Of a stretch of 10,477 bases of DNA, positions 1-10,477 are shown in pieces. Source of the stretch: Oscillospiraceae bacterium (GTDB lineage Bacteria > Bacillota > Clostridia > Oscillospirales > QAMX01); NCBI GenBank assembly GCA_902772625.1, contig CACYBP010000037.1, positions 1 through 10,477 of the forward strand, given 5' to 3'. Made by a program: the position numbers and the translations under genes. The notes under the pieces are model-generated. The model searched no databases. It saw only the letters and a program-made list of their open reading frames with translations, and was not told the origin of the DNA. Within the stretch, counting starts at the first letter, position 1, and each line of letters begins with the position of its first letter.

Positions 1-13
1 AAGGAGTCTTTGT

Positions 14-991
14 ATGCTTGACGAAAGAAAAAACCGCGCGCTCTCCTTCGGCCCCGACGGGAAATTCCGGATCCTGATGATCTCCGACGTGCACGCCGGG
101 AAGGGCTATCGCGAAAAAGACACGGTCAGGGCGCTGGACGCGCTGGTGGAAAAGACCGAACCCGATCTGGTGTTCATGGCCGGGGATATCTGCGGCCCGG
201 GGGTAATCCACGCGGAGTCGCCTGAGGAGGTGCGCGAGGTCCTGGACGGCCTTTCCTCGCCCATGGAAAAGCGCGGGATCTATTGGGCGCACGTCTTCGG
301 CAATCACGATGACAATTACGGCGTGGAAAAAGAAACGCAGGAGGAGATCTACGAATCCTATTCCCACTGCCTTTCCGAGGCCGGTCCCGCCGACGTGCCG
401 GGCGTGGGGAATTACGCCCTGCCCATCCGGGACGAAAAGGGGGAAAGGATCCTCTGGAATATCTTCGCCCTGGATTCCCACGACGGGATCGACGGCTTCC
501 GGAGCCTGTGCGGCCTTCGCGAGGAGCAGCCCTTTCTGGCCCGCAACAACCAGTGGGGAGACCCCATCTATTTCGAGCAGATCCTCTGGTACTGGGAGAC
601 CTCCAAAAAGCTTGAGGCGGCGGAGGGGAGAAAGATCCCGTCCCTGATGTTCATGCACGTGCCGCTTCCCGAGCACGATCTGGTCACCGAGCACAAGGAT
701 CAGTCCCGCTTCACGGGCCATCAGATGGAGGACGTGTGCTGCGCGCCGGTGAATTCCGGGCTGTTCGCCGCCTGCCTCCAGCGGGGCGACGTCCGGGGCA
801 TTTACACAGGACACGACCACGTCAACGATTTTGACGCCGAATACCTGGGCGTCCGGCTGGGGTACGACGGATTCCTCAGCTATCACGCCTCTCATAACGA
901 GGAGATCCGGGGCGGAAGGCTTTTCGAGCTTCGCGCCGACGATCCCGCCTCCTTCCGGACGCGCATGGTGCGGGTCCGTGACGTGCTTTGA
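14..991 (+). CDS. Calcineurin-like metallophosphoesterase, cytosolic
   Basis: This 325-residue protein shows the full metal-binding set of the calcineurin-like phosphoesterase superfamily, in order: D25-x-H27, GD at 57-58, GNHDD at 96-100, an MHVP motif with H215, and GHDH at 266-269. These residues normally bind two metal ions and cleave a phosphoester. There is no signal peptide or membrane segment, so it should act in the cytosol. The motif spacing and the ALDSHD segment (152-157) recall the Dcr2/Icc-like branch rather than exonucleases or 5'-nucleotidases; the substrate is unknown. The ATG is preceded by AAGGAG at 1-6 with 7 nt spacing, so the gene appears complete although it abuts the window edge. 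Only 17 nt separate its stop from the MoxR gene, which suggests cotranscription. The family call is firm; the role is not. Confidence 0.93.
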   Translation: MLDERKNRALSFGPDGKFRILMISDVHAGKGYREKDTVRALDALVEKTEPDLVFMAGDICGPGVIHAESPEEVREVLDGLSSPMEKRGIYWAHVFGNHDDNYGVEKETQEEIYESYSHCLSEAGPADVPGVGNYALPIRDEKGERILWNIFALDSHDGIDGFRSLCGLREEQPFLARNNQWGDPIYFEQILWYWETSKKLEAAEGRKIPSLMFMHVPLPEHDLVTEHKDQSRFTGHQMEDVCCAPVNSGLFAACLQRGDVRGIYTGHDHVNDFDAEYLGVRLGYDGFLSYHASHNEEIRGGRLFELRADDPASFRTRMVRVRDVL

Positions 992-1008
992 CGAAAGGAG
1001 CAGACAAG

Positions 1009-1983
1009 ATGGAACTTCGTGAGATCAAAAACCTGGCCGACCGGATCAAGGGCAATATTTCCAGGGTCATCGTCGGCAAACCCGAAACCGCCGAGCACGT
1101 GATCATCGCGCTTTTCTCCCGGGGCCACGTCCTCCTGGAGGACCTTCCGGGACTCGGCAAGACGCTGCTCGCCAAGACGCTGGCGAGATCGGTGGGATGC
1201 GATTTCAAAAGAACGCAGTTCACCCCCGACCTGATGCCCTCGGACATCACCGGCATCAATTTCTACGATCCCAAGAACGGCGAATTCCGTTTCCGCCCCG
1301 GCTCGGTCTTCACCAACGTCATGCTGGCCGACGAGATCAACCGCGCCACCCCGCGCACCCAGTCGGCTCTTCTGGAGGCGATGGAGGAAAGACAGGTCAC
1401 GGTGGACGGAGTCACCATGCCGCTTCCCGATCCCTTCATGGTCATCGCCACCCAGAACCCGGTGGAGATCCAGGGCACCTTCCCGCTTCCCGAGGCCCAG
1501 CTTGACCGCTTCATGATCAAGACCGGCATGGGCTATCCCTCGCTTCAGGAAAGCGACGAGATCATGCGCCGGTTCAACGGGGAAAACCCTTTGGAGGAGC
1601 TTTCTCCCGTGGCCACGGCCGACGAGGTGACCGACGCCCAAAGGTCCTTTGCAAAGGTGCGCGTCGGCGCCGACGTTTACCGGTATATCTCTCTGATCGC
1701 CGACGCCAGCCGCCGCCACCCCGAGGTGGTCTACGGCGTCAGCCCCCGCGGCACCCAGGCGCTTCTGCGCGCCTCCCAGATCGCGTCGATCCTGGCGGGG
1801 CGTGAATTCGTCACCCCCGACGACGTCAAGAAGATGGCGGTGCCGGTGCTGGCGCACAGACTGGTGGTCAAGAACGCCTCCCGCCTGAAATCCGGCCAGG
1901 CCGAAAAGGTCATGGAAAACGTGGTGGCCGGCGTCGCCGTGCCCACCGAGGATTTCGAGAGCGCCAACCTCCGGGAGCTTTAA
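1009..1983 (+). CDS. MoxR-family AAA+ ATPase
   Basis: This 324-residue protein is a typical MoxR ATPase in length and motif order: Walker A EDLPGLGKT (44-52), Walker B LADEIN (106-111) followed by the family signature RATPRTQSALLEAMEE, sensor 1 around ATQNP (147-151), LDRF (165-168) and a sensor-2 region GVSPRG (243-248). MoxR ATPases are thought to act as chaperones that help assemble or mature partner proteins, usually together with a DUF58/VWA-type protein, which is the next gene here. I chose the ATG at 1009 because AGGAG (996-1000) lies 8 nt upstream; an in-frame TTG at 988 would overlap the previous stop and has no ribosome site of its own. No membrane segment is seen. The family is certain; the client is unknown. 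Confidence 0.96.
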   Translation: MELREIKNLADRIKGNISRVIVGKPETAEHVIIALFSRGHVLLEDLPGLGKTLLAKTLARSVGCDFKRTQFTPDLMPSDITGINFYDPKNGEFRFRPGSVFTNVMLADEINRATPRTQSALLEAMEERQVTVDGVTMPLPDPFMVIATQNPVEIQGTFPLPEAQLDRFMIKTGMGYPSLQESDEIMRRFNGENPLEELSPVATADEVTDAQRSFAKVRVGADVYRYISLIADASRRHPEVVYGVSPRGTQALLRASQIASILAGREFVTPDDVKKMAVPVLAHRLVVKNASRLKSGQAEKVMENVVAGVAVPTEDFESANLREL

Positions 1984-2025
1984 GGCCTCCGGGAGATCTG
2001 CGCGCGGGAAAGGAGGGAACGAGTC

Positions 2026-3135
2026 TTGCAGATCGGCTTTATTTCGCTGACCGTGGCGGTGCTGGTCATTCTGGAGGCGGTGATCTACCGCTTTTTCGGC
2101 CGGAAGAAGATCACCTACACCCGGGAATACGAGCCGCATACGGTATTTGAAGGCGAAAAGATCGTCATGACCGAAAAGATCGCCAACGCCAAGCTCCTTC
2201 CCATGCCGTGGGTGCGGGTGGAAAGCATGCTGTCGCCCCATCTGCGCTATCTGGCTTATGAGAAGAACGGGGAGACGGGGAAAAAAGAACAGGTCTACGG
2301 AGAGCACAACAGCGTCTTTTCCATCGGCCCCTATTCCACCGTCACGAGAAAATACACCATGCTCTGCGAAAAGCGGGGCTATTACGCCCTGCGGGCGGTC
2401 AACCTGACCTCCCAGGACATTTTCGGCATCGGCGAACCGCAGAGCGCCGAGGCCGAGATCAACGCCGCGGTGACCGTCTATCCCCGCATCGCCGATATGG
2501 ACGAGCTGGGGGACATCTCCAAAAGCATGATGGGCGACGTGGTGGTCCGGCGCTGGATCGCCGAGGATCCCTTCATGATCCGCGGCACCCGGGACTACAC
2601 CACCGGGGATCCCCAGTCCAAGATCAACTGGAAGGCCTCGGCCCGTGTCGGCAGTTTCGTGGTGAACGAGCTGGACGCCACAGCCGATATCCGCCTTCTG
2701 ATCCTCTTCAACGTGCAGGCCGATCCCTATTTCCGCACCGACGTGGATCCCGACTGCATCGAATCGGGCGTATCGCGCGCGGCGGCGCTTCTGCAGTTCG
2801 CCGCCGAGCACGGCATCACCGCCTCTTTTGCCAGCAACTCGGTGGATTCTCCCCTGGGGGAAAACCGCACCGGCTTCGGGAACGGCAGCGGACACCTGGG
2901 CGAGGAATTCACCCAGCTTGCCTGCCTTTCCCGGGAAAGCAAGGTCAACTTCGGGCGCTTCCTGTCAGACGAGGCGCACCGGGGGATCTCCGACTGCGGG
3001 ATCCTTCTGATGACGGCCTATTGGGACGACGAGATCGCCGAGGGCGTGGAGGAACTGCGCCGGGACGGCAATCTGGTGGAGATCATGATGATGGACCGCA
3101 CGCCCGGTACCTTCGCGTCGAAAAAGGAGGCGTAA
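2026..3135 (+). CDS. DUF58 domain-containing protein
   Basis: This 369-residue protein has one N-terminal hydrophobic segment (about residues 4-21), a beta-rich region, and the DUF58 hallmark at about 183-207, in which RDYTTGD is followed by the INWKASAR-type core. After the motif comes a VWA-like fold region beginning near LLILFN. DUF58 proteins are the standard partners of MoxR ATPases, and this gene follows one directly. The start is a TTG, supported by AGGAGG at 2011-2016 with 9 nt spacing; it also leaves the membrane anchor intact. Most DUF58 proteins have two hydrophobic segments near the N-terminus, whereas only one is obvious here. The next gene begins 1 nt after the stop, so the two are almost certainly translated together. 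The molecular role of the family is poorly known. Confidence 0.93.
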   Translation: MQIGFISLTVAVLVILEAVIYRFFGRKKITYTREYEPHTVFEGEKIVMTEKIANAKLLPMPWVRVESMLSPHLRYLAYEKNGETGKKEQVYGEHNSVFSIGPYSTVTRKYTMLCEKRGYYALRAVNLTSQDIFGIGEPQSAEAEINAAVTVYPRIADMDELGDISKSMMGDVVVRRWIAEDPFMIRGTRDYTTGDPQSKINWKASARVGSFVVNELDATADIRLLILFNVQADPYFRTDVDPDCIESGVSRAAALLQFAAEHGITASFASNSVDSPLGENRTGFGNGSGHLGEEFTQLACLSRESKVNFGRFLSDEAHRGISDCGILLMTAYWDDEIAEGVEELRRDGNLVEIMMMDRTPGTFASKKEA

Positions 3136-3136
3136 G

Positions 3137-4465
3137 ATGAAGGATCGTCTGTTCGCGGGACTCTACGCGCTGCTCCTGTTCCTGCCCTTCTATATCATCG
3201 CGGCCCTGACTCTTCTGCCCCACGGGGAGATCTGGCTGTATCTTGCTTTTCTTTTCGGCATGACCGTGACGGGGACGCTTCTCGGCCGGCTTTTCCGGCG
3301 CCAGTCCTTTTATGCGGCCCTGATCGGCTTCCTTCTGGCCGCGGTGATCGCGGGATATATGCTTCTGAAGGGACAGGAGGCCGGGCTGATGAGCACCACC
3401 TTCCATCTCCTGATGGGGGCCCTGACGGTGACCGCCTTCCTGATCGGCATGCGCCCGGGGGTCAGGCCGTGGTACGAAACGGTGCAGGCCACCATGACGG
3501 TGTCGCTTCTGATCGTGTACGCCGTGATCATGCTCTTCATGGGGGTGGTCCGGCCCTTCGGAGCCTATACGACCCTCTATTCCGTGGCGGTGATCGCCGC
3601 GGCGGTGGTGGGACTCTTCGCCATGAACCGGTTCAATATCGCCACCCAGCTCAACCGCAACGTGCGCTATAAAAACAAAAAGGTCGCGCAAGAGGAGACG
3701 ATGGACGGGCGAAAAGAATCCCGCATGCCGGTGTCGCCCGCCCTGATCCGTCACAATCTGGCCCTGACGGCGCTGATCCTTCTTTTGGTGATCGTAATCA
3801 ATCCCCTGATCGGGGCGGGGCTCTCCGCCGCGGGGAGGGGGATCGTGTCGCTTCTGAACTACCGCCCGGAGGAGGAACGCCACGTGATCGAAAACGTGGA
3901 TTACGACCCCGGCGAGGTGGTGGAGCAGGTGATCAGGGAACCCAGCGAGGAGGCCAAGGAAATCGCCGCGATCATCACCTGGATCGGCGTGGGACTCTTC
4001 GGCGCGCTCCTGCTTTTCACTCTCTTCCGGAAGGGGAGGGCCCTGATCCGCAGGCTCATGTCCGGCGGTTCGGGAAAACACCGGAAGAAGAAGGAGTACG
4101 AGGAACAGGAGGACGAGCTTTACGAGGAGATCGTGGAATCCATCGATTTCAAGCTCTTCGGCGGAAAGAAGCTCGGCGACCTGATCCGGGAACGGGTCGG
4201 CTTCTTCGCCATGAAAAGCGAGGAGGAGCGGGTGCGCTTCCTCTTCCGGAGCTCAGTGAGAAAGGCGTCGGCCCGCGGCTATCGCCGCAAACCCGCCAAG
4301 ACCGCCTTCGAGATCCTGGGGGAGATCGCCTATGCCGACGGCGACCCGAAGCACGAAAAAGCCTACCGGGAGCTGGCCGACGTCTACGACCGCACCCGCT
4401 ACGACGGGAATCCGCCGGCCGAGGGCACGGCCGCCCGGCTCCGGGAGGAGCTTCGCTGGAAGTGA
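3137..4465 (+). CDS. Polytopic membrane protein with DUF4129-like C-terminus
   Basis: This 442-residue protein has about six hydrophobic segments in its first 170 residues, one at about 207-230 and one at about 275-297, and then a charged cytosolic tail. The end of the tail (about 365-425) contains RGYRRKPAKTAFEILGEIA and a Y-DRTRYDG motif. That pattern of basic helix, T-x-x-E and Y-x-x-x-RY matches the DUF4129 domain found at the C-terminus of the transglutaminase-like membrane proteins of MoxR/DUF58 operons. I see no Cys-His-Asp transglutaminase core: the loop between the seventh and eighth segments (about 230-275) is short and acidic. ATG is preceded by AAGGAGG (3124-3130). It lies 1 nt after the DUF58 stop. 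I infer it is the membrane component of the MoxR module. The membrane topology is clear; the domain name is by eye. Confidence 0.85.
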   Translation: MKDRLFAGLYALLLFLPFYIIAALTLLPHGEIWLYLAFLFGMTVTGTLLGRLFRRQSFYAALIGFLLAAVIAGYMLLKGQEAGLMSTTFHLLMGALTVTAFLIGMRPGVRPWYETVQATMTVSLLIVYAVIMLFMGVVRPFGAYTTLYSVAVIAAAVVGLFAMNRFNIATQLNRNVRYKNKKVAQEETMDGRKESRMPVSPALIRHNLALTALILLLVIVINPLIGAGLSAAGRGIVSLLNYRPEEERHVIENVDYDPGEVVEQVIREPSEEAKEIAAIITWIGVGLFGALLLFTLFRKGRALIRRLMSGGSGKHRKKKEYEEQEDELYEEIVESIDFKLFGGKKLGDLIRERVGFFAMKSEEERVRFLFRSSVRKASARGYRRKPAKTAFEILGEIAYADGDPKHEKAYRELADVYDRTRYDGNPPAEGTAARLREELRWK

Positions 4466-4469
4466 CGTC

Positions 4470-4498
4470 TTGAAAAAGGGCGAAAAGCGTGATACAAT
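4470..4498 (+). promoter_or_regulatory. Sigma-A promoter for the lipoprotein gene
   Basis: TTGAAA (4470-4475), a 17-nt spacer and TACAAT (4493-4498) with the extended -10 dinucleotide TG at 4490-4491. It starts 5 nt after the stop of the DUF4129 gene, and transcription would begin near 4505, giving a leader of about 24 nt. It separates the lipoprotein from the MoxR module, although no terminator lies between them. Confidence 0.8.
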
Positions 4499-4528
4499 AC
4501 CCTCTGCCATCTGAAGGGAGTGGATTCG

Positions 4529-5329
4529 GTGAGAATAAAGAGAACTGTGGCGGCGGTCCTTGCCGTTTTGATGCTTTTAAGCTTTGCCTCCTGCGACGGA
4601 AAGAAGACCGGAAGCGTGGAATTCGGCGGCGATGAAAAGCCCGGAACCAGCGAGACCCGCACCGGCGTCGACGCCTTCACCGGCGACGAAGAGAGCGATA
4701 CCTCCTCCTCCGAAGGGGGAGAGAGCGAGTATGAGACCTTCTTCAGCGTGGAAGAATACGACTATACCGCCGAGACCGATCCCGACGTCATCGCCTATTT
4801 CTCGGGCGATATCGGCGGCGCCCTGACAAAGCTCGCCCCGTCGCTCAAATCGGTGGCCTACGCCAGCTACTGCTATCCCCAGGAAATGACCGGCGCCCCC
4901 GAGGACGACATGCTCTGGTGCGCCATATACAGCATGATCGCAAGCTTTCATCAGTATCCCGAGGGCACTGAGACCGATTCCGAAGGCCGCGTGACGGTCA
5001 AGGGCACCGAGGCGCTGCGCAAAATGGCCGACGACATGTTCTCGGCCGACGTGGAGATCCTGGGCGTCCCGCACGAGGATTTCCTGGACTCTCTGATCTT
5101 CTTCGACAACGCCTCCGATACCTATACCTTCGAGCCGTCGGGCGGGGAGGGGCTGGAGATCCGCATCTGCGCCCTGGAGCCCGGCAAGGACGGCCGGATG
5201 AACGTCACGGTGCAGCTTTACAACAGCATTTTTGATTTTACCTCCTGGGTCAGCCTTTCGATCCGGAAGGAGGAAAGCTCCTCTTACGGCTACACGGTCT
5301 GGAGCGCCACCTCCTGGAGCGAGGAGTAA
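4529..5329 (+). CDS. Lipoprotein of unknown function
   Basis: This 266-residue protein starts with RIKR and a hydrophobic stretch ending in SFASC, a slightly atypical lipobox (Phe at -3) with the lipidated Cys at residue 22. Residues about 25-70 are a Ser/Glu/Gly/Asp-rich linker, which is usual for lipoproteins that hold a domain away from the membrane. The rest (about 75-266) is a globular, acidic domain with several Tyr and Trp; it contains two Cys besides the lipidated one within about 40 residues (in YASYCYP and MLWCAIY), and another in IRICALEP. I do not recognise the domain. I chose the GTG at 4529 because AAGGGAG (4514-4520) lies 8 nt upstream; the in-frame GTG at 4520 overlaps that site. 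It has its own promoter and terminator, so it looks monocistronic. It is likely surface-exposed. Confidence 0.85.
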   Translation: MRIKRTVAAVLAVLMLLSFASCDGKKTGSVEFGGDEKPGTSETRTGVDAFTGDEESDTSSSEGGESEYETFFSVEEYDYTAETDPDVIAYFSGDIGGALTKLAPSLKSVAYASYCYPQEMTGAPEDDMLWCAIYSMIASFHQYPEGTETDSEGRVTVKGTEALRKMADDMFSADVEILGVPHEDFLDSLIFFDNASDTYTFEPSGGEGLEIRICALEPGKDGRMNVTVQLYNSIFDFTSWVSLSIRKEESSSYGYTVWSATSWSEE

Positions 5330-5344
5330 ATCACAGGGAGATCC

Positions 5345-5381
5345 GCGCGGGGGGAGAGCATCTGCCCCCGCGCTTTCTTTT
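5345..5381 (+). terminator. Intrinsic terminator after the lipoprotein gene
   Basis: A perfect 9-bp GC stem, GCGCGGGGG (5345-5353) with CCCCCGCGC (5365-5373). It can be extended past one G-G mismatch by AGA/TCT around a GCA loop. It is followed by TTTCTTTT. It ends 1 nt before the GGAGG ribosome site of the next gene, so any transcript of that gene from upstream has to read through it. Confidence 0.85.
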
Positions 5382-5392
5382 CGGAGGACGCC

Positions 5393-6613
5393 ATGAAAAC
5401 GATGAACCGTGAAAAGAAAAACCGCCTGCCCCGCGCCTTGCTTTTCTGCGGCGCGGCGCTCGCGCTCTGCCTTCTTGCGGCGTGCGGAAGAAGTGCAGAG
5501 CCGGAAAGCGCCGAAAAGGTGCGCGTTCCCGTGCTCTTTGAAGAAGACGGGAAGACCCTGCCGGAGCCTCCGGAAGAGGAAAGCGGCCCCGACCGCGCGA
5601 TTCCCGAGACCGCGTCCTTTCAGGAGGCGGGAAGGCTTTTCTGGAACGGCGCGGAGGTGACGCTTTTCAAAAGGGACGGGGACGGGACCGCCTTTGCGAA
5701 GGCTTCCGCCCTGGCTTCGGCGGCGGGGGGCGAACTGCGGGAGGACGCCTCCGGCTTCACACTTGAAGTGGGGGAGGAGAGCTTTTTCGTATCGACCCTC
5801 GCGGGCGGCTTTTACCGGGGAAAGACCCGGGTGGGCGACCCGGTGACCTGGAAAGGGGAGCTTTATCTTCCCGCCTCCCCTCTGATCGAGGCGAGCGCTC
5901 TGCCGCGTCTGGACGACGGGGAGGATATCTATCTCACGAAGGCCGTGAAGAGCGCCGACGTCCCGAAGGGAGTGCGGCTGCCGGTGCTGATGTATCACGC
6001 GGTCAGCGACGACACCTGGGGCATCAACGAGCTTTTCGTGAAGCCCGCGGAAATGGAAAAGCAGCTGAAATATCTGGTGGACCACGGCTACACCACCGTC
6101 ACCTTCGAGGATCTGGATAGAATCGATTCGATCAAAAAGCCGGTGATGCTCACCTTTGACGACGGCTATAAGGACAATTACGAGGAGCTTTTCCCGCTCC
6201 TTCAAAAATACAACTGCAAGGCCACGGTCTTCATGATCTCCGGCAAGCTCGCAAAGACCCATTACCTCACCGAAGAGATGCTCCGGGAGATGGCCGATTC
6301 GGGGCTGGTATCGATCCAGAGCCACACCGTAAGCCATCCGAAGCTCGCGGAGATCACCGGCGAAAAGCTCCGCGCCGAGCTGCGGGATTCCCGGCTGGAG
6401 ATCGCACGGCTCACCGGCCGGATCCCCTTCGTCCTCTGCTATCCCTCGGGAAGCTACAACGGCGAGACCCGCCGGGTGGGGGCGGAATACTATTCCTTCG
6501 GCGTCAGGATGAACGGCGGGGGATATTCCACCTCGATGGATCCCTTCCTGATCCCGCGCTATTACGTCTCCCGGGCGACCTCGCTTTCCTCCTTCGCGTC
6601 GATGATCGGGTGA
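5393..6613 (+). CDS. Polysaccharide deacetylase lipoprotein with stalk domain
   Basis: This 406-residue protein has a lipoprotein signal peptide (basic N-terminus, hydrophobic core, LLAAC lipobox). A region at about 75-185 resembles the copper-amine-oxidase N-terminal-like stalk domain, with its G-E-LYLP pattern near the end. A NodB homology domain fills about 200-406. It carries the carbohydrate esterase family 4 motifs: TFDDGYKD (254-261; D256 the expected base, D257 a metal ligand), SHTVSHP (310-316; H311 and H315 metal ligands) and YPSGSYN (350-356). Family members remove acetyl groups from N-acetylated sugars such as peptidoglycan or exopolysaccharide at the cell surface. The late LxLH-type motif is not evident. 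ATG has GGAGG (5383-5387) 5 nt upstream. The terminator just ahead of it and the lack of a visible promoter leave its transcription unexplained. The true substrate is unknown. Confidence 0.92.
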   Translation: MKTMNREKKNRLPRALLFCGAALALCLLAACGRSAEPESAEKVRVPVLFEEDGKTLPEPPEEESGPDRAIPETASFQEAGRLFWNGAEVTLFKRDGDGTAFAKASALASAAGGELREDASGFTLEVGEESFFVSTLAGGFYRGKTRVGDPVTWKGELYLPASPLIEASALPRLDDGEDIYLTKAVKSADVPKGVRLPVLMYHAVSDDTWGINELFVKPAEMEKQLKYLVDHGYTTVTFEDLDRIDSIKKPVMLTFDDGYKDNYEELFPLLQKYNCKATVFMISGKLAKTHYLTEEMLREMADSGLVSIQSHTVSHPKLAEITGEKLRAELRDSRLEIARLTGRIPFVLCYPSGSYNGETRRVGAEYYSFGVRMNGGGYSTSMDPFLIPRYYVSRATSLSSFASMIG

Positions 6614-6681
6614 GGGATCTTCGCCTCCGTAATCAAGGACCGGCCGCGCCGGATACGAATACAAGAAAAGAGGAACGAACC

Positions 6682-7545
6682 ATGAGATACCGTTTTCTGC
6701 GCTTCCCGGGCGGAAAAAGCAAGGCCGTGACCTTCAGCTACGACGACGGCTGCCGCGACGATATCCGCCTGGCGGAGACCATGGCGCGTTACGGGCTGAA
6801 GGGGACCTTCAACCTGAACGGCGCCCAGCTGGGGAAGGACGGGACCGACTGGCGCCTGACCCCCGGCGAGATCAGAAGGGTCATTCTGGAGAAGGGCTTT
6901 GAGATCGCGAATCACGGCGCGGATCACCGCGCGAACGGCCTCCTGCGGCCCATCGAGGGGATCCGGGAGGTGCTGGACTGCCGGCTGGAGCTGGAAAAGG
7001 CCTTCGGCCGCATCGTCCGGGGCATGGCTTATCCGGACAGCGGGATCAACTTCTTCCAGAACGGCGCGTCCCGGGAATCGGTGAAGCGGTATCTTGAGGA
7101 TCTGGATATCGTCTACGCCCGGACCACCGTCAGCGATCCCTCCTTCCGCCTGCCGGAGGATTGGCTCGCCTGGAATCCCTCCTGCCATCATTCCGATCCC
7201 GACGCACTGAAATGCGTCGACGCGTTTCTGGCCGTCGATCCCGAAAAAGCGTACGTCGCTTCACGCTATCCGCGGCTCTTCATGCTCTGGGGACACAGCT
7301 TTGAATTCGAAAGGGCGGGGAACTGGGCGCTTCTGGAAGAGATCTGCGAAAGGCTTTCGGCGGAAGACGGGATCTGGCACGCCACCAATATGGAGATCTA
7401 TACTTACGTCAGGGCTTACGGGTCCCTGATTTTCAGCGCCGACCATCTGACGGTCCATAACCCGACCCTTCTGAAGATATGGTTCGACGCCGACGGCGCG
7501 CTCTATGCCGTGGAGCCGGGCGGGACCGTGAGGCTTCCCGGCTGA
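6682..7545 (+). CDS. NodB-type polysaccharide deacetylase, no export signal
   Basis: This 287-residue protein has a NodB-like core starting near residue 14: TFSYDDG (17-23; D21 and D22 in the base and metal positions), GTFNLN (41-46), NHGADH (77-82; H78 and H82 as metal ligands) and MAYPDSG near residue 115. It then departs from the standard family. A second half with HH in CHHSD, WGHSFEF and a short beta-rich C-terminus (about 258-287) follows. No signal peptide or membrane segment is seen, so it should act in the cytosol or leave by an unknown route. ATG at 6682 has AAAGAGG (6667-6673) 8 nt upstream; upstream in-frame codons begin at the end of the previous gene and look non-coding. It follows the lipoprotein deacetylase by 68 bp with no terminator between, so cotranscription is likely. 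Substrate unknown. Confidence 0.9.
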   Translation: MRYRFLRFPGGKSKAVTFSYDDGCRDDIRLAETMARYGLKGTFNLNGAQLGKDGTDWRLTPGEIRRVILEKGFEIANHGADHRANGLLRPIEGIREVLDCRLELEKAFGRIVRGMAYPDSGINFFQNGASRESVKRYLEDLDIVYARTTVSDPSFRLPEDWLAWNPSCHHSDPDALKCVDAFLAVDPEKAYVASRYPRLFMLWGHSFEFERAGNWALLEEICERLSAEDGIWHATNMEIYTYVRAYGSLIFSADHLTVHNPTLLKIWFDADGALYAVEPGGTVRLPG

Positions 7546-7593
7546 CCCCGCGAAAGCCGCTTCGCCTGTCCGGAAATCCACGGGGAACGGGAC

Positions 7594-7622
7594 TTGACAA
7601 GCGGCGCTTTTTCTGATTAAAT
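7594..7622 (+). promoter_or_regulatory. Sigma-A promoter for the ECF/kinase operon
   Basis: A perfect TTGACA (7594-7599), 17-nt spacer and TTAAAT (7617-7622) preceded by TG at 7614-7615 (extended -10). Transcription would begin near 7629, leaving a leader of about 143 nt before the GTG at 7772. The stretch 7546-7593 before it holds only weak hairpins and no T-run, so no clear terminator closes the deacetylase unit. Confidence 0.85.
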
Positions 7623-7628
7623 GATAAA

Positions 7629-7753
7629 AACGGCCTTTTCTGAAGGAAAGACCCGGAGAGGATCTCTCCGACGGGCAGAAGCCCTTTCCGTAAACAAGCA
7701 ATAACAGGATTGCCAGAAGGCGCCGGGGCGCAGAAGCGCCCGGGCATCTTTTT
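7629..7753 (+). promoter_or_regulatory. Structured leader, candidate riboswitch or attenuator of unknown class
   Basis: Between the promoter and the ECF gene the RNA can form a three-way junction. P1 is GGAAAG (7645-7650) with CTTTCC (7684-7689). P2 is CGGAGAG (7654-7660) with CTCTCCG (7664-7670). P3 is GGGC (7673-7676) with GCCC (7681-7684), sharing its last base with P1. A short hairpin GCC-AGAA-GGC (7712-7721) and then an intrinsic terminator follow. CCCGG (7652-7656) can instead pair with CCGGG (7723-7727), which would open both P2 and the terminator and so could act as antiterminator. I tested by eye for TPP, FMN, cobalamin, THF, preQ1, glycine, SAM, ZTP, T-box and purine signatures and found none. 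The promoter, folded RNA, terminator, transporter order is the usual riboswitch layout. The class and ligand are unknown. Confidence 0.5.
7722..7753 (+). terminator. Leader terminator upstream of the ECF gene
   Basis: GGGCGC (7726-7731) pairs with GCGCCC (7736-7741) around an AGAA loop; past one G-G mismatch (7725/7742) the stem extends by GCC with GGC (7722-7724 with 7743-7745). TCTTTTT follows at 7747-7753. It lies inside the leader, 18 nt ahead of the start codon, so it would control read-through into the operon. Confidence 0.8.
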
Positions 7754-7771
7754 GCGCAGGAAAGGAAAACC

Positions 7772-8587
7772 GTGAACAAGCACGTCAAAAAACTCATCTA
7801 CTCCGCCGTGTTTCTGGCACTCTGCATGGTGCTGCCCTTCCTGACCGGCCAGATCCCCCAGATCGGTCAGGCGCTGTCTCCGATGCATATCCCGGTGCTT
7901 CTCTGCGGATTCGTCTGCGGATGGCCCTGGGGACTTGCGGTGGGTTTCATCGCCCCGCTTCTGCGTTCGCTGATCTTCCAGATGCCGCCCATGTGGCCGG
8001 GCGCAGTGGCCATGGCCTTCGAGCTTGCCACCTACGGCTTCACCTCGGGCATCCTCTTCAAGGCGCTTCCCTCGAAGATCCGCCTGATGAACGCCGCGGC
8101 CGTCTCCTCCTTCTTCCTGGCCCTCGGCGCAGCGGTGACCGCCTACGGCTTCTATCTCAATCAGGCCGCGTCCTACGCCCTTCTGAAAAACATCGCCCTT
8201 CCCTCTGAGGACTTCGTCCCGGCGGAAAACCCCGGCAAGCTCTGCGTGATCTTCGGCCTGATCGCCCTGTCCCTCGGACTCTTCGCCCTGATCCTTCTCC
8301 GGACCAGAGCCGTCCTCGGCGCGAAGAAGAACGGCGGTTTTGAGATCATCGAATGGACCGGCACGGCGAGGGTGCTTCCGGTTCTGATCGTCTCCATGAT
8401 CCTCGGCCGGTGCGTCTGGGGCCTCGCGCGGTTCGTGATCGCGGGCTTCAACACCACCGCCTTCCCCTTCTCGGCCTTCGTCGCCGGCGCGGTGACCACC
8501 GCGATCCCCGGCATCATCCTCCACATCGTCCTGATCCCGGTACTGATGGCCGCCCTCGCAAGAGCGAAGCTGGTCCTGAACGACTGA
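7772..8587 (+). CDS. ECF-transporter S component with inserted membrane pair
   Basis: This 271-residue integral membrane protein looks like the substrate-binding S component of an energy-coupling-factor vitamin/micronutrient transporter. Residues 8-103 carry the family-like N-terminal part (a helix ending LPFLTGQIPQIG, then SPMHIPVLLCGF, GWPWGLAVGFIAPLLRS, and an AMAFELATYGF helix). Residues about 201-271 carry the usual end, with GRCVWGL and PGIILHIVLIPVL. Between them (about 105-200) sits an extra stretch with two hydrophobic segments, making the protein much longer than the common 170-200 residues. No ATPase or T subunit is nearby, so it would share a module encoded elsewhere (group II type). 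GTG has AAAGGA (7761-7766) 5 nt upstream. The adjacent kinase hints at a phosphorylatable ligand, but the substrate cannot be read from sequence. ThiT-, FolT- or pyridoxine-type identities are not excluded. Confidence 0.85.
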   Translation: MNKHVKKLIYSAVFLALCMVLPFLTGQIPQIGQALSPMHIPVLLCGFVCGWPWGLAVGFIAPLLRSLIFQMPPMWPGAVAMAFELATYGFTSGILFKALPSKIRLMNAAAVSSFFLALGAAVTAYGFYLNQAASYALLKNIALPSEDFVPAENPGKLCVIFGLIALSLGLFALILLRTRAVLGAKKNGGFEIIEWTGTARVLPVLIVSMILGRCVWGLARFVIAGFNTTAFPFSAFVAGAVTTAIPGIILHIVLIPVLMAALARAKLVLND

Positions 8588-8590
8588 ACG

Positions 8591-9658
8591 ATGACCGAAA
8601 GAGAAAAGAAGGAACTCCGGGAGCTGCTTTTAAGCCACGCACGGCGCTACCCGGCCATGGAACCCGAGGACTTTTTCAAGCTCCTCTATCAGATGACCTT
8701 CGGCCCCGGCCACATGGTCGGCGACGGGGAGGAGGCGCTTTCGCGCCTTTCCCGGGAACGGGCTGCCTCGCCCCTCCGGAAGATCCCCTTCCGGGAGGAT
8801 ATCGGCGGGGATTTCACCCGCCTGTGGCTTTCAAGCGAAGAAGGAAAGGACGTCCCCGACCGGATCCTTTCGCGGCTTTTCACCCTCTCCTCCCGGGAAA
8901 AGACCGGGACGCGGGACGAGTTTCTGGAAAGGCTGCTCTTCGCCGGCGAGCTTGCCTCCGAGGAGGTCTTCGCCTTTTCCGGCGGGTGGTTTGACGAGGC
9001 TCTGGAGGCCTACCGCGCGGCGGGGCTCCCGGCGCTTCATCACAGCGACGCCTTCCGGAAGGAGTACGCGCCGTCTTACCGGGTGGTTTCCCGGAAATAC
9101 GCAAGGCTTCTTCCCCTGATCCTCCGGATCGAGGAGCTGAAAAAGAAGAAGGACCGGCTTCTTATCACACTGGACGGCCGGTGTGCCGCGGGGAAGAGCA
9201 CCGCGGCGAAGCTTCTTGAGGCCTTCTATCCCGACGCCGCCGTGATCCGGATGGACGATTTCTTCCTGCCCCCCGCGCTTCGCACCGGGGCGCGCTACGC
9301 CGAGCCCGGCGGGAATATCCATTACGAAAGATTCCGGGAGGAGGTCGCCCCGAAGGCGGGGAAGGAAGGCTTTTCCTACCGCGTCTTCGATTGCTCGGCC
9401 ATGGCTTACGGGGAAAGCCGGACGGTGCCGCTCTCGTCCCTCACGGTGGTGGAGGGATCTTATGCCGGCAATCCGAAGCTCGGACTCGACCCCGATCTGA
9501 AGGTGTTTTTCACCGTGGATCCCGAAACCCAGCTTTCGCGCATCGAAAAACGGAACGGACCGGAGGCGAAAAAGGTCTTTTCCGAAAAGTGGATCCCCCT
9601 GGAGGAAGCGTACTTCGCCTCCTCCGGGATCGAAAAAACCAGCGATCTCGTGCTTTGA
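8591..9658 (+). CDS. Uridine-kinase-like P-loop kinase with unknown N-terminal domain
   Basis: This 355-residue protein has two parts. The C-terminal part (about 187-355) is a small-molecule kinase of the uridine kinase/phosphoribulokinase type: Walker A GRCAAGKST (196-204), MDDFFLP (221-227) in the place of the substrate-binding Asp motif, VVEGSYA as Walker-B-like strand, and RIEKRNG (317-323) as a possible lid. The N-terminal part (1-about 175) is helical and unfamiliar; its conserved-looking motifs are LLYQMTFGPGHMV (31-43), GGDFTRLWL, and HHSDAFRKEYAPSYRVV (150-166). It starts 3 nt after the ECF gene stop with no clear ribosome site, so translation is probably coupled to that gene. I infer that it phosphorylates the compound brought in by the S component, trapping it in the cell. 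The kinase fold is firm; the substrate and the N-terminal role are not. Confidence 0.88.
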   Translation: MTEREKKELRELLLSHARRYPAMEPEDFFKLLYQMTFGPGHMVGDGEEALSRLSRERAASPLRKIPFREDIGGDFTRLWLSSEEGKDVPDRILSRLFTLSSREKTGTRDEFLERLLFAGELASEEVFAFSGGWFDEALEAYRAAGLPALHHSDAFRKEYAPSYRVVSRKYARLLPLILRIEELKKKKDRLLITLDGRCAAGKSTAAKLLEAFYPDAAVIRMDDFFLPPALRTGARYAEPGGNIHYERFREEVAPKAGKEGFSYRVFDCSAMAYGESRTVPLSSLTVVEGSYAGNPKLGLDPDLKVFFTVDPETQLSRIEKRNGPEAKKVFSEKWIPLEEAYFASSGIEKTSDLVL

Positions 9659-9663
9659 CCCCG

Positions 9664-9709
9664 GCGCGGCGGAGAAGACGATCTTCTCCGCCGCGCTTTC
9701 TCTTTTCCT
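9664..9709 (+). terminator. Strong intrinsic terminator of the ECF/kinase operon
   Basis: A perfect 15-bp stem, GCGCGGCGGAGAAGA (9664-9678) with its complement at 9682-9696, around a CGA loop, followed by TTTCTCTTTT. It begins 5 nt after the kinase stop codon. Confidence 0.93.
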
Positions 9710-9735
9710 CCGGGGAAGAGAAAAGCGCCCGGCGG

Positions 9736-9784
9736 GGGAAAAGGCAAAAAGTACATTTTTCCCGAAAGGAAGCCTCTCCTTTTT
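9736..9784 (+). terminator. Two weaker terminator-like hairpins in an A/T-rich spacer
   Basis: GGGAAAA (9736-9742) can pair with TTTTCCC (9757-9763), and AAAGGA (9765-9770) with TCCTTT (9777-9782) before two further T. They may be a back-up for the strong terminator or insulation of the next promoter. The A/T-rich make-up of 9739-9800 stands out from the surrounding GC-rich DNA. Confidence 0.35.
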
Positions 9785-9797
9785 ATAGATTTACCCA

Positions 9798-9826
9798 TTG
9801 CAATCAGAAGGGGGGTATGGTATCAT
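9798..9826 (+). promoter_or_regulatory. Sigma-A promoter for the sodium-pump decarboxylase genes
   Basis: TTGCAA (9798-9803), a 17-nt spacer and TATCAT (9821-9826) with TG at 9818-9819 (extended -10). Transcription would start near 9833. The leader of about 70 nt can form a weak hairpin, CGGG (9854-9857) with CCCG (9867-9870), but nothing that suggests a known RNA switch. Confidence 0.8.
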
Positions 9827-9902
9827 ACAACAGTAGATTTGTGAAATTTCGGACGGGAAAAGAATACCCGCCTGAATGAGGAAAGTGAGAGGTGTTAAAG
9901 CG

Positions 9903-10271
9903 TTGAATAACCTGACCAACCCCACCTTCGGCGAGGCCGCTCTGATCGCGCTCATGGGCATCCTGTTCGTGTTCGCCGTTTTGGCCTTCCTGATGGTGAT
10001 CCTGATGATCTCGGCCGCGATCTTCGGCGCGATCGAAAGGAAGAAGAAGGCGAAGGCCGCATCCAAGGCTCCCGCGCCTGCCGCTTCGCCCGCCGCGGAA
10101 GAAAAGAAAGCGCCTCTTGCGAAAGGCTCCTGCGGCGATCTGAAGCTTCATGACGTTCCCGCGCGCGACGCCGCCATGGTCATGGCCATCGTTGCGGACG
10201 AACTGAAGACTCCTCTGAACGAGCTGCGGTTCACCTCCATCAAAAAGGCGGAAAGCGAGGAAGCGAAATGA
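9903..10271 (+). CDS. oadG: Sodium-pump decarboxylase gamma subunit (OadG family)
   Basis: This 122-residue protein has the layout of the gamma subunit of biotin-dependent sodium-translocating decarboxylases: one N-terminal membrane helix (about 14-41) carrying GILFVFAVLAFL, then a Lys/Ala/Pro-rich flexible linker (about 44-75), then a small C-terminal segment (about 78-122) ending in RFTSIKK. Gamma subunits anchor the carboxyltransferase alpha subunit to the membrane beta subunit. I favour the TTG at 9903, with AGAGGTG (9888-9894) 8 nt upstream, over an ATG at 9876 that lacks a ribosome site and adds nine mostly basic residues. The stop overlaps the beta-subunit ATG. The substrate could be oxaloacetate, methylmalonyl-CoA or glutaconyl-CoA, so the symbol names the family only. 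Alpha and biotin-carrier genes are not in the window. Confidence 0.87.
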   Translation: MNNLTNPTFGEAALIALMGILFVFAVLAFLMVILMISAAIFGAIERKKKAKAASKAPAPAASPAAEEKKAPLAKGSCGDLKLHDVPARDAAMVMAIVADELKTPLNELRFTSIKKAESEEAK

Positions 10272-10477
10272 ATTTAGGCGAAATTTTACTTAACCTCTGG
10301 GAGACCTCCGGCCTTTACGGGCTTTTCGGAAAGCTCGACTGGCAGTCGGCGGTCATGATCGGCATCGCCTGCATCCTTCTCTACCTCGGTATCGTCAAGC
10401 AGTACGAGCCCCTTCTGATGGTCGGCATCGCCTTCGGCATCCTTCTGACCAACATCCCCTTCGGCGATATCTATCAC
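10268..10477 (+). CDS. oadB: Sodium-pump decarboxylase beta subunit, N-terminal part (OadB family)
   Basis: The first 70 residues of a membrane protein that runs off the right edge. The sequence WQSAVMIGIACILLYLGIV (about 25-43) followed by KQYEPLLMVGIAFGILLTNIP (about 44-64) is close to the highly conserved beginning of the beta subunit, which decarboxylates the carboxybiotin and moves sodium across the membrane. The full family length is roughly 370-430 residues, so most of it, including the ion-binding Asp region, is missing here. ATG overlaps the gamma stop as ATGA (10268-10271), with GAGGAAG (10257-10263) 4 nt upstream, which points to coupled translation. As with the gamma subunit, the substrate (oxaloacetate, methylmalonyl-CoA or glutaconyl-CoA) is not decided by this part. 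Confidence 0.93.
   Translation, partial: MNLGEILLNLWETSGLYGLFGKLDWQSAVMIGIACILLYLGIVKQYEPLLMVGIAFGILLTNIPFGDIYH

Follow-up and report, generated by a model that had tools for sequence, protein, structure and literature searches.

Candidate salvage of a nickel-pincer nucleotide-related riboside by an energy-coupling factor S component and a two-domain kinase under a conserved leader RNA

Known uptake systems and the S component-kinase unit

Pyridinium ribosides are taken up by PnuC and trapped as phosphates by nicotinamide riboside kinase (NRK), a P-loop kinase, and in the salvage of alpha-ribazole a cofactor riboside is recovered by an S component and a kinase, CblT and CblS, the latter not known as a P-loop kinase. 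The present text deals with a further pair of this kind, an S component of an energy-coupling factor (ECF) transporter (hereafter S) and a two-domain kinase, encoded behind a folded leader RNA on contig CACYBP010000037.1 of a gut bacterium (genome G000, an assembly 86% complete); the whole stretch of 10,477 nt (positions 1 to 10,477) is referred to as the window. Computation establishes the gene pair, the folds, a conserved leader that is common to larB, larE and larC operons, and a distribution complementary to that of LarB and LarE. The pair most likely imports and phosphorylates a pyridinium riboside related to the nickel-pincer nucleotide (NPN), as a salvage route controlled by the leader, a reading which is given a probability of about 0.6 and in which we infer import, phosphorylation, sensing, ligand and direction from these patterns.

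S scores above the PF12822 cut-off of Pfam (44.6 against 30.7 bits) and so belongs to the same family as RibU, ThiT, FolT and PanT; it differs from them in reaching no cut-off of a named NCBIfam subfamily (FolT family 25.1 of 60 bits, ThiT 24.9 of 108.45) and in a 95-residue insert. Membership in a known vitamin family, which would have told against the initial annotation, was hence rejected. On comparing a model of S with known structures (Foldseek), RibU and ThiT were the best matches with a probability of 0.99, yet at E 0.07 or worse and a root-mean-square deviation of 8-10 Å. The insert is absent from 54 of the 56 aligned S proteins, being present only in the window and the same-genus locus L002; it is modelled as helical with low confidence (pLDDT 53-74), its place is taken to be between membrane segments four and five, and S proteins that lack it have 165-189 amino acids.

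Compared with PnuC and NRK, the window kinase falls in the same superfamily, whereas the importer is of the ECF type, an N-terminal domain without a Pfam family is added and the proposed cargo is a sulfur/nickel pincer. Compared with CblT and CblS, the kinase is of the P-loop type and no cobalamin riboswitch was found upstream of S in the window or in 53 loci. With the LarB-LarE-LarC pathway the pair has the leader RNA and a DUF3842 neighbour in common; that pathway is a de novo synthesis, while the pair is proposed to be an uptake route that replaces LarB and LarE.

LarB, LarE and LarC together form NPN, which is a pyridinium mononucleotide (PMC11796402), and theirs is the one cofactor route described in the passages covered of PMC7583248, PMC11770544, PMC12611868 and PMC11796402; the word salvage is absent from the accessible main text of these four papers, and no mention was found there of genomes that use NPN without making it. 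Genomes with larB, larC and larE but without larA have been noted (PMC11796402), and larBCE was predicted in a haloarchaeon with salvage unmentioned in the part seen (PMC8305020). In a literature search that mostly did not cover subscription journals, no paper was found joining larB or larE with a riboswitch or lactate racemase with an ECF transporter, papers on lactate racemase and a riboswitch were judged unrelated, and nothing was found on DUF3842 or on an ECF S component with a uridine kinase.

The features of the unit, all on the + strand, are as follows.

7594..7622, +, promoter TTGACA-17-TTAAAT (-35 box 7594-7599, spacer of 17 nt, -10 box 7617-7622), read from the sequence
7629..7771, +, leader RNA, a member of the recurring C-N(N)GAA-G hairpin element (fold, family, covariation)
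7635..7650, +, hairpin P1, CUUUUC-UGAA-GGAAAG (leader sequence and fold)
7654..7670, +, extra hairpin between P1 and P2, an insertion in the window copy (predicted fold)
7673..7684, +, hairpin P2, GGGC-AGAA-GCCC (leader sequence and fold)
7707..7724, +, hairpin P3, GGAUUGCC-AGAA-GGCGCC, putative antiterminator, with only 1-3 nt of overlap with the terminator 5' arm
7722..7753, +, leader terminator hairpin with loop AGAA, followed by a T run (predicted fold)
7772..8587, +, ECF transporter S-component gene, GTG start, 271 amino acids (PF12822)
8078..8362, +, 95-residue insert in S, residues 103-197 (alignment of S proteins)
8591..9658, +, two-domain kinase gene, 355 amino acids (open reading frame, relatives, structure model)
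8591..9088, +, kinase N-terminal helical domain, residues 1-166, no Pfam family found (model, Pfam search)
9089..9655, +, P-loop kinase domain, residues 167-355
9663..9697, +, closing intrinsic terminator (16-pair stem, T-rich tail)

The isolated two-gene unit of the initial annotation, with its promoter, folded leader and terminator, S gene, kinase gene and closing terminator, was confirmed in all its parts, to which the insert in S and the recurrence of the leader as a conserved RNA element are now added. The promoter agrees with the consensus at 10 of 12 bases and is absent from the listing of a promoter scan because its -10 box lacks A at position 2; in L002, L003 and L004, too, S is preceded by TTGACA and a spacer of 17 nt. 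Three nucleotides separate the S stop, which ends at 8587, from the kinase start at 8591. The 16-pair stem of the closing terminator is the longest among 18 terminator-like sites in the window, a number in little excess of the 13.0 expected (standard deviation 3.9). An OAD gamma-chain-like gene (PF04277) and the next membrane protein gene, at 9876-10477, start a separate operon, and these genes are also seen, by eye, after the kinase of L002 and L003.

The kinase domain belongs to the uridine kinase/PRK P-loop superfamily by its fold and its Walker A motif, the fold being that of the uridine kinase/NRK superfamily, and the window kinase reaches no curated Pfam or NCBIfam cut-off of a named uridine kinase. 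No Pfam match of the window kinase falls within residues 1-166, and for the 44 kinase relatives of set A3 all 23 matched families are P-loop families by name. The N-terminal domain is modelled as helical with high confidence, contains the invariant residues D27, K30, Q34, H41, E56, R77 and H151 and may be a second active or binding site. A form consisting of the kinase domain alone also occurs, and it adjoins S in L106.

Relatives of the kinase were sought in public genomes, which gave at least 570 candidate places, of which the best 80 were used; 85 kinase loci were examined after leaving out duplicates, the window, the partial or weak L016-L020 and the S-less L010 and L015, the last two being added back as misses to give 87. 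Of the 21 genomes of the family, 18 contain a match to the kinase (E<=0.001), the one in G004 being weak and limited to the kinase part. At 56 of the 87 loci an S gene is found on the kinase strand no more than 1.5 kb away, at 46 of the 85 examined the distance is at most 200 bp, and in L081 (4684-6294, + strand) a single open reading frame of 538 codons is S fused to the kinase. In L050 and L056 the operon runs EcfA, EcfA, a gene for 264 residues taken as T by position only, S and kinase. The two genes are thus often neighbours, so that the refuting outcome named with the initial annotation, rare adjacency, did not occur; the pair also co-occurs across genomes (p 1e-11, below). EcfT is encoded elsewhere in G000 (CbiQ/EcfT, 161 bits, at C83), and a shared ECF module is hence present.

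A leader RNA common to S and lar genes

Tandem short hairpins before a terminator are known from mini-ykkC, with ACGR loops, and from ANTAR-target leaders, with hexaloops carrying A1 and G4. Leaders of the window type likewise have tandem short hairpins before a terminator, but their N(N)GAA loops are mostly closed by C-G and have no Rfam match. Among 105 N(N)GAA-G hairpins, 87 are C-G closed and the 5' arms make up 87 distinct sequences; in this search, which covered GAA loops only, the hairpins do not fit the A1, G4 hexaloops of ANTAR targets.

The window leader (7629-7774) folds at -65.9 kcal/mol with z -5.43, and none of 200 shuffles was as stable, so the fold proposed at the outset is real; long-range pairing of the 5' end with the ribosome site is predicted. 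Hairpins of at least 5 pairs whose loop of 4-5 nt ends in GAA were counted in the leaders of 95 distinct S genes, over at most 320 nt before each. There were 106 of them, the next commonest loop ending giving 31, against a mean of 11.2 (maximum 19) in 50 dinucleotide shuffles and 12.75 (maximum 20) in 20 rounds of random stretches from the same loci. The density was 3.50 per kb in S leaders and 0.50 per kb at 549 general gene starts (S and kinase genes included); it was low (0.74 per kb) before 47 kinase genes without an upstream S, and hence the element belongs to S. At least one GAA-then-G hairpin occurs in 49 of the 95 leaders and at least two in 32, nearly half having none by this rule.

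In eight hand-picked leaders, aligned with MAFFT and given a hand-drawn structure, 96.9% of cells pair with 30 two-sided changes, compared with 78.4% and 10.4 in shuffles and 37-47% pairing with shifted partners. When 22 leaders were aligned to the model so obtained, which favours the structure, 95.9% pairing and 88 two-sided changes were obtained. The leader is a conserved, uncatalogued RNA element: with Rfam 15 the sole listing in the window was sR4 (E 0.14, 22.3 of 50 bits), with no gathering-score match, and on nine other leader loci nothing fell on the leader at E<=0.5. A known riboswitch before S was rejected as well, with no gathering-score match upstream of S among 53 loci, the FMN matches in L048 and L060 lying downstream of the kinase. 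Gut-1 RNA (RF01706), probably unrelated, was seen in two kinase loci (L021:11078-11151 and L073:5944-6014).

In some copies (e.g. L094 and L101) the 3' arm of P3 is the 5' arm of the terminator, which is the anatomy of an attenuator. The window copy has only a 1-3 nt overlap of P3 and terminator and the extra hairpin between P1 and P2; a fold constrained to form P3 is less favourable by 6.9 kcal/mol and still retains most of the terminator stem, and attenuation is therefore not demonstrated for this copy.

A model of the element (R2) was trained on 22 leaders, of which 21 belong to S genes and one to an operon that starts with EcfA and includes S and kinase; 245 genomes of the order were then searched with a per-genome threshold of E<=0.1. 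The model matched 26 genomes, once each; about 24 chance matches are allowed at face value, and it is the positions of the matches that argue against chance. Sixteen of them precede S (at least 9 being training members) and eight precede larE and/or larB, so that regulation is shared with the lar genes. In L161 these were identified as LarE (TIGR00268, 255 bits, cut-off 150) and LarB (NF033503, 254.7 bits, cut-off 175), those of other leader loci being identified by phmmer. In a search with a laxer filter of 30 chosen genomes, the only match at E<=1 in the 2.08 Mb of G000 was found on C285 (25.6 bits), followed by two small membrane proteins and then by larC (TIGR00299, 212 bits, cut-off 90); the NPN maturase is thus encoded in the same genome, and the element is common to S-kinase and larC operons there, neither copy being strong. 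The same order was repeated in G019 (E 0.6) and G015 (by eye). Over 13 rows of lar-type and other matches, one of them a probable chance second match in L151, pairing was 95.4% with 44 two-sided changes. The low-scoring matches L208 and L210, whose next genes look unrelated (by eye), were taken as chance.

In L200 (1719-2490, - strand), L151, L160, L201 and L202 the leader is separated from larC, larB or larE by two small membrane proteins, the lar operons of L151 and L160 starting with small membrane proteins of the kind MACFLVP/MTLLTT; the L200 pair has no Pfam or NCBIfam match. DUF3842 (PF12953) lies within 1.5 kb of the kinase on the same strand at 19 of 85 loci, and in 3-kb leader loci it accompanies 5 of 16 S matches and 4 of 8 lar matches, which makes it a candidate new player in NPN metabolism. 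It is found near S or the kinase, or beside leader-larB/larE operons, in L034, L036, L046, L101, L151, L158 and others.

Distribution of S, the kinase and the lar genes

The genes were compared over 117 genomes with an S threshold of 160 bits, chosen after the scores had been seen, and with tests that ignore deeper relatedness. Carriers numbered 52 for S, 32 for the two-domain kinase, 34 for LarA (31 by PF09861 and 3 by the A8 profile alone), 31 for LarB, 39 for LarC and 30 for LarE, with LarB and LarE together in 29 genomes.

Kinase and S: 30 both, 2 kinase only, 22 S only, 63 neither; p 1e-11
S and LarB: 5 both, 47 S only, 26 LarB only, 39 neither; p 2.6e-4, anti-correlated
S and LarE: 5 both, 47 S only, 25 LarE only, 40 neither; p 5e-4, anti-correlated
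Kinase and LarB: 2 both, 30 kinase only, 29 LarB only, 56 neither; p 0.002, anti-correlated
S and LarA: 22 both, 30 S only, 12 LarA only, 53 neither; p 0.007, positively associated
S and LarC: 12 both, 40 S only, 27 LarC only, 38 neither; p 0.048, weakly anti-correlated
LarE and LarA: 9 both, 21 LarE only, 22 LarA only, 65 neither; p 0.64

The overall anti-correlation of S and LarC arises because most LarC sits with LarB and LarE. Where LarC occurs without these two (7 genomes, G000 included), S is present in all seven and the kinase in six. LarA without LarB or LarE was found in 24 genomes, 20 of them with S, while only 2 of the 10 genomes with LarA alongside LarB or LarE have S. Taken together, S is carried by 25 of 29 genomes with LarA or LarC and without LarB/LarE, against 22 of 56 that have none of the four (p 3e-5); at the level of genera, collapsed by hand, S is in 20 and not in 3, against 4 and 18 for LarB/LarE holders (p 4e-6). 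As LarE and LarA are not associated, the presence of LarA by itself is a poor guide to NPN use. A LarA gene (602 bits, NF033504 cut-off 460) follows S in L112 with its start overlapping the S stop (ATGA); it is the only such neighbour, and LarB, LarC and LarE were not found in its genome, G119. A second LarA type is NF052594, a putative hexonate epimerase (624 bits, cut-off 500; L167).

Proposed function and alternative explanations

A cell that has LarA or LarC and lacks both LarB and LarE must obtain the sulfurated nucleotide from its surroundings. In the proposed salvage route S, using the shared ECF module encoded elsewhere, would import NPN or its nickel-free form, likeliest as the dephosphorylated pyridinium riboside; the kinase would put back the 5'-phosphate and so trap the cargo, LarC, where required, would add the nickel, and the users of the cofactor would be racemases or epimerases of the LarA type or other NPN proteins. 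The leader RNA would set transcription by the choice between P3 and terminator, in response to cofactor status. In favour of this route count the leader common to S and lar operons (larC in G000 among them), the complementary distribution, the overlap of S with larA in L112, the DUF3842 neighbours, the uridine kinase/NRK fold with its short, weak alignment to nicotinamide riboside kinase 1, and the EcfT encoded elsewhere in G000. Twenty genomes have S and LarA and neither LarB nor LarE; 18 of these lack LarC as well, so that complete NPN is the likelier cargo in them, while the nickel-free form may be taken up where LarC is present. The initial annotation had the pair import and phosphorylate one compound, possibly a new one, and is supported in part: the pair is conserved, S occurs without the two-domain kinase in 22 of the 52 S-positive genomes, and for the ligand, whose identity we infer, a specific candidate from the NPN pathway can now be named.

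Several observations weigh against NPN-related salvage. The kinase fold is not specific to NRK, and the likeness to nicotinamide riboside kinase 1 is a weak alignment of 40 residues in the stretch from P-loop to DDFF (E 0.043). The window leader matches R2 weakly (16.2 bits, E 0.48 over 97 kb), and the genome-wide E of the G000 larC leader is just 0.158. One leader (L152, 45.6 bits) is directly upstream of alaS (by eye), the sole case, and another (L159/L190), beside DUF3842, precedes a FecCD-type ABC importer and a binding protein. As for distribution, 22 of the 52 S-positive genomes have no LarA, LarB, LarC or LarE at the cut-offs used, 5 have S plus both LarB and LarE, S is missing at 160 bits from 4 of the 24 LarA genomes without LarB/LarE (G041, G079, G120 and G125), and LarA was not found in 5 of the 7 LarC-only genomes (G015 and G019 having it). 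No LarA was found in G000 at its 86% completeness, while its congeners G014 and G015 have it. Finally, a cytidine deaminase-like gene (by eye) adjoins S in L133 (4585-5052, - strand), which fits an ordinary nucleoside. NPN proteins beyond LarA have been suspected (PMC11796402), which would soften the 22 lar-less genomes without being evidence here.

Those 22 genomes and the single leaders before alaS and the FecCD importer would suit a different cofactor or vitamin precursor, the leader being a general antitermination element picked up by several salvage operons, so that its sharing with lar genes leaves the ligand unfixed; S or lar genes follow 24 of the 26 leaders, however, and S occurs in every LarC-only genome, and this explanation is regarded as unlikely, if worth keeping in view. 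It is rather improbable that the pair serves ordinary nucleoside uptake and trapping, in which S would import cytidine, uridine or the like, the kinase would make the monophosphate and the leader would reflect nucleotide (CTP) status. The uridine kinase fold, the deaminase-like gene in L133 and the role of CTP as LarC cosubstrate (PMC11796402) agree with it, whereas the leader also stands on larE and larB, for whose products the accessible part of that paper mentions no use of CTP, S is anti-correlated with LarB and the window kinase stays below every uridine kinase cut-off.

Feeding of the pathway from upstream, with S importing nicotinic acid riboside or another pyridine precursor for LarB, could draw on the LarB substrate, nicotinic acid adenine dinucleotide (PMC11796402), and on the NRK-like superfamily of the kinase; since S and LarB avoid each other and S accompanies LarC-only genomes, it is most improbable. 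Hardly more can be said for nickel supply, in which the leader would sense nickel or its lack, S would import a nickel chelate and the kinase would be incidental: the lar steps do serve a nickel cofactor and one leader belongs to a FecCD-type importer, but S is of the PF12822 family and is tied to the kinase, even fused to it in L081.

With NPN-related salvage as the preferred reading, it is tentatively suggested, at somewhat less than even odds, that this is the first NPN salvage route, made up of S and a dedicated two-domain riboside kinase through which bacteria could use LarA-type or other NPN enzymes in the absence of LarB and LarE. It would be under a new C-NGAA-G riboswitch class, responsive to the cofactor or a precursor of it and in control of the biosynthetic lar operons as well. 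If the proposal is true, salvage would explain LarA genes in genomes without LarB and LarE, a likely new ligand-sensing RNA would be at hand, an orphan S-component family would be named and a two-domain kinase with a family-less first domain would be given a function, and NPN would join the cofactors exchanged among gut bacteria, as a shared 'vitamin' of gut communities.

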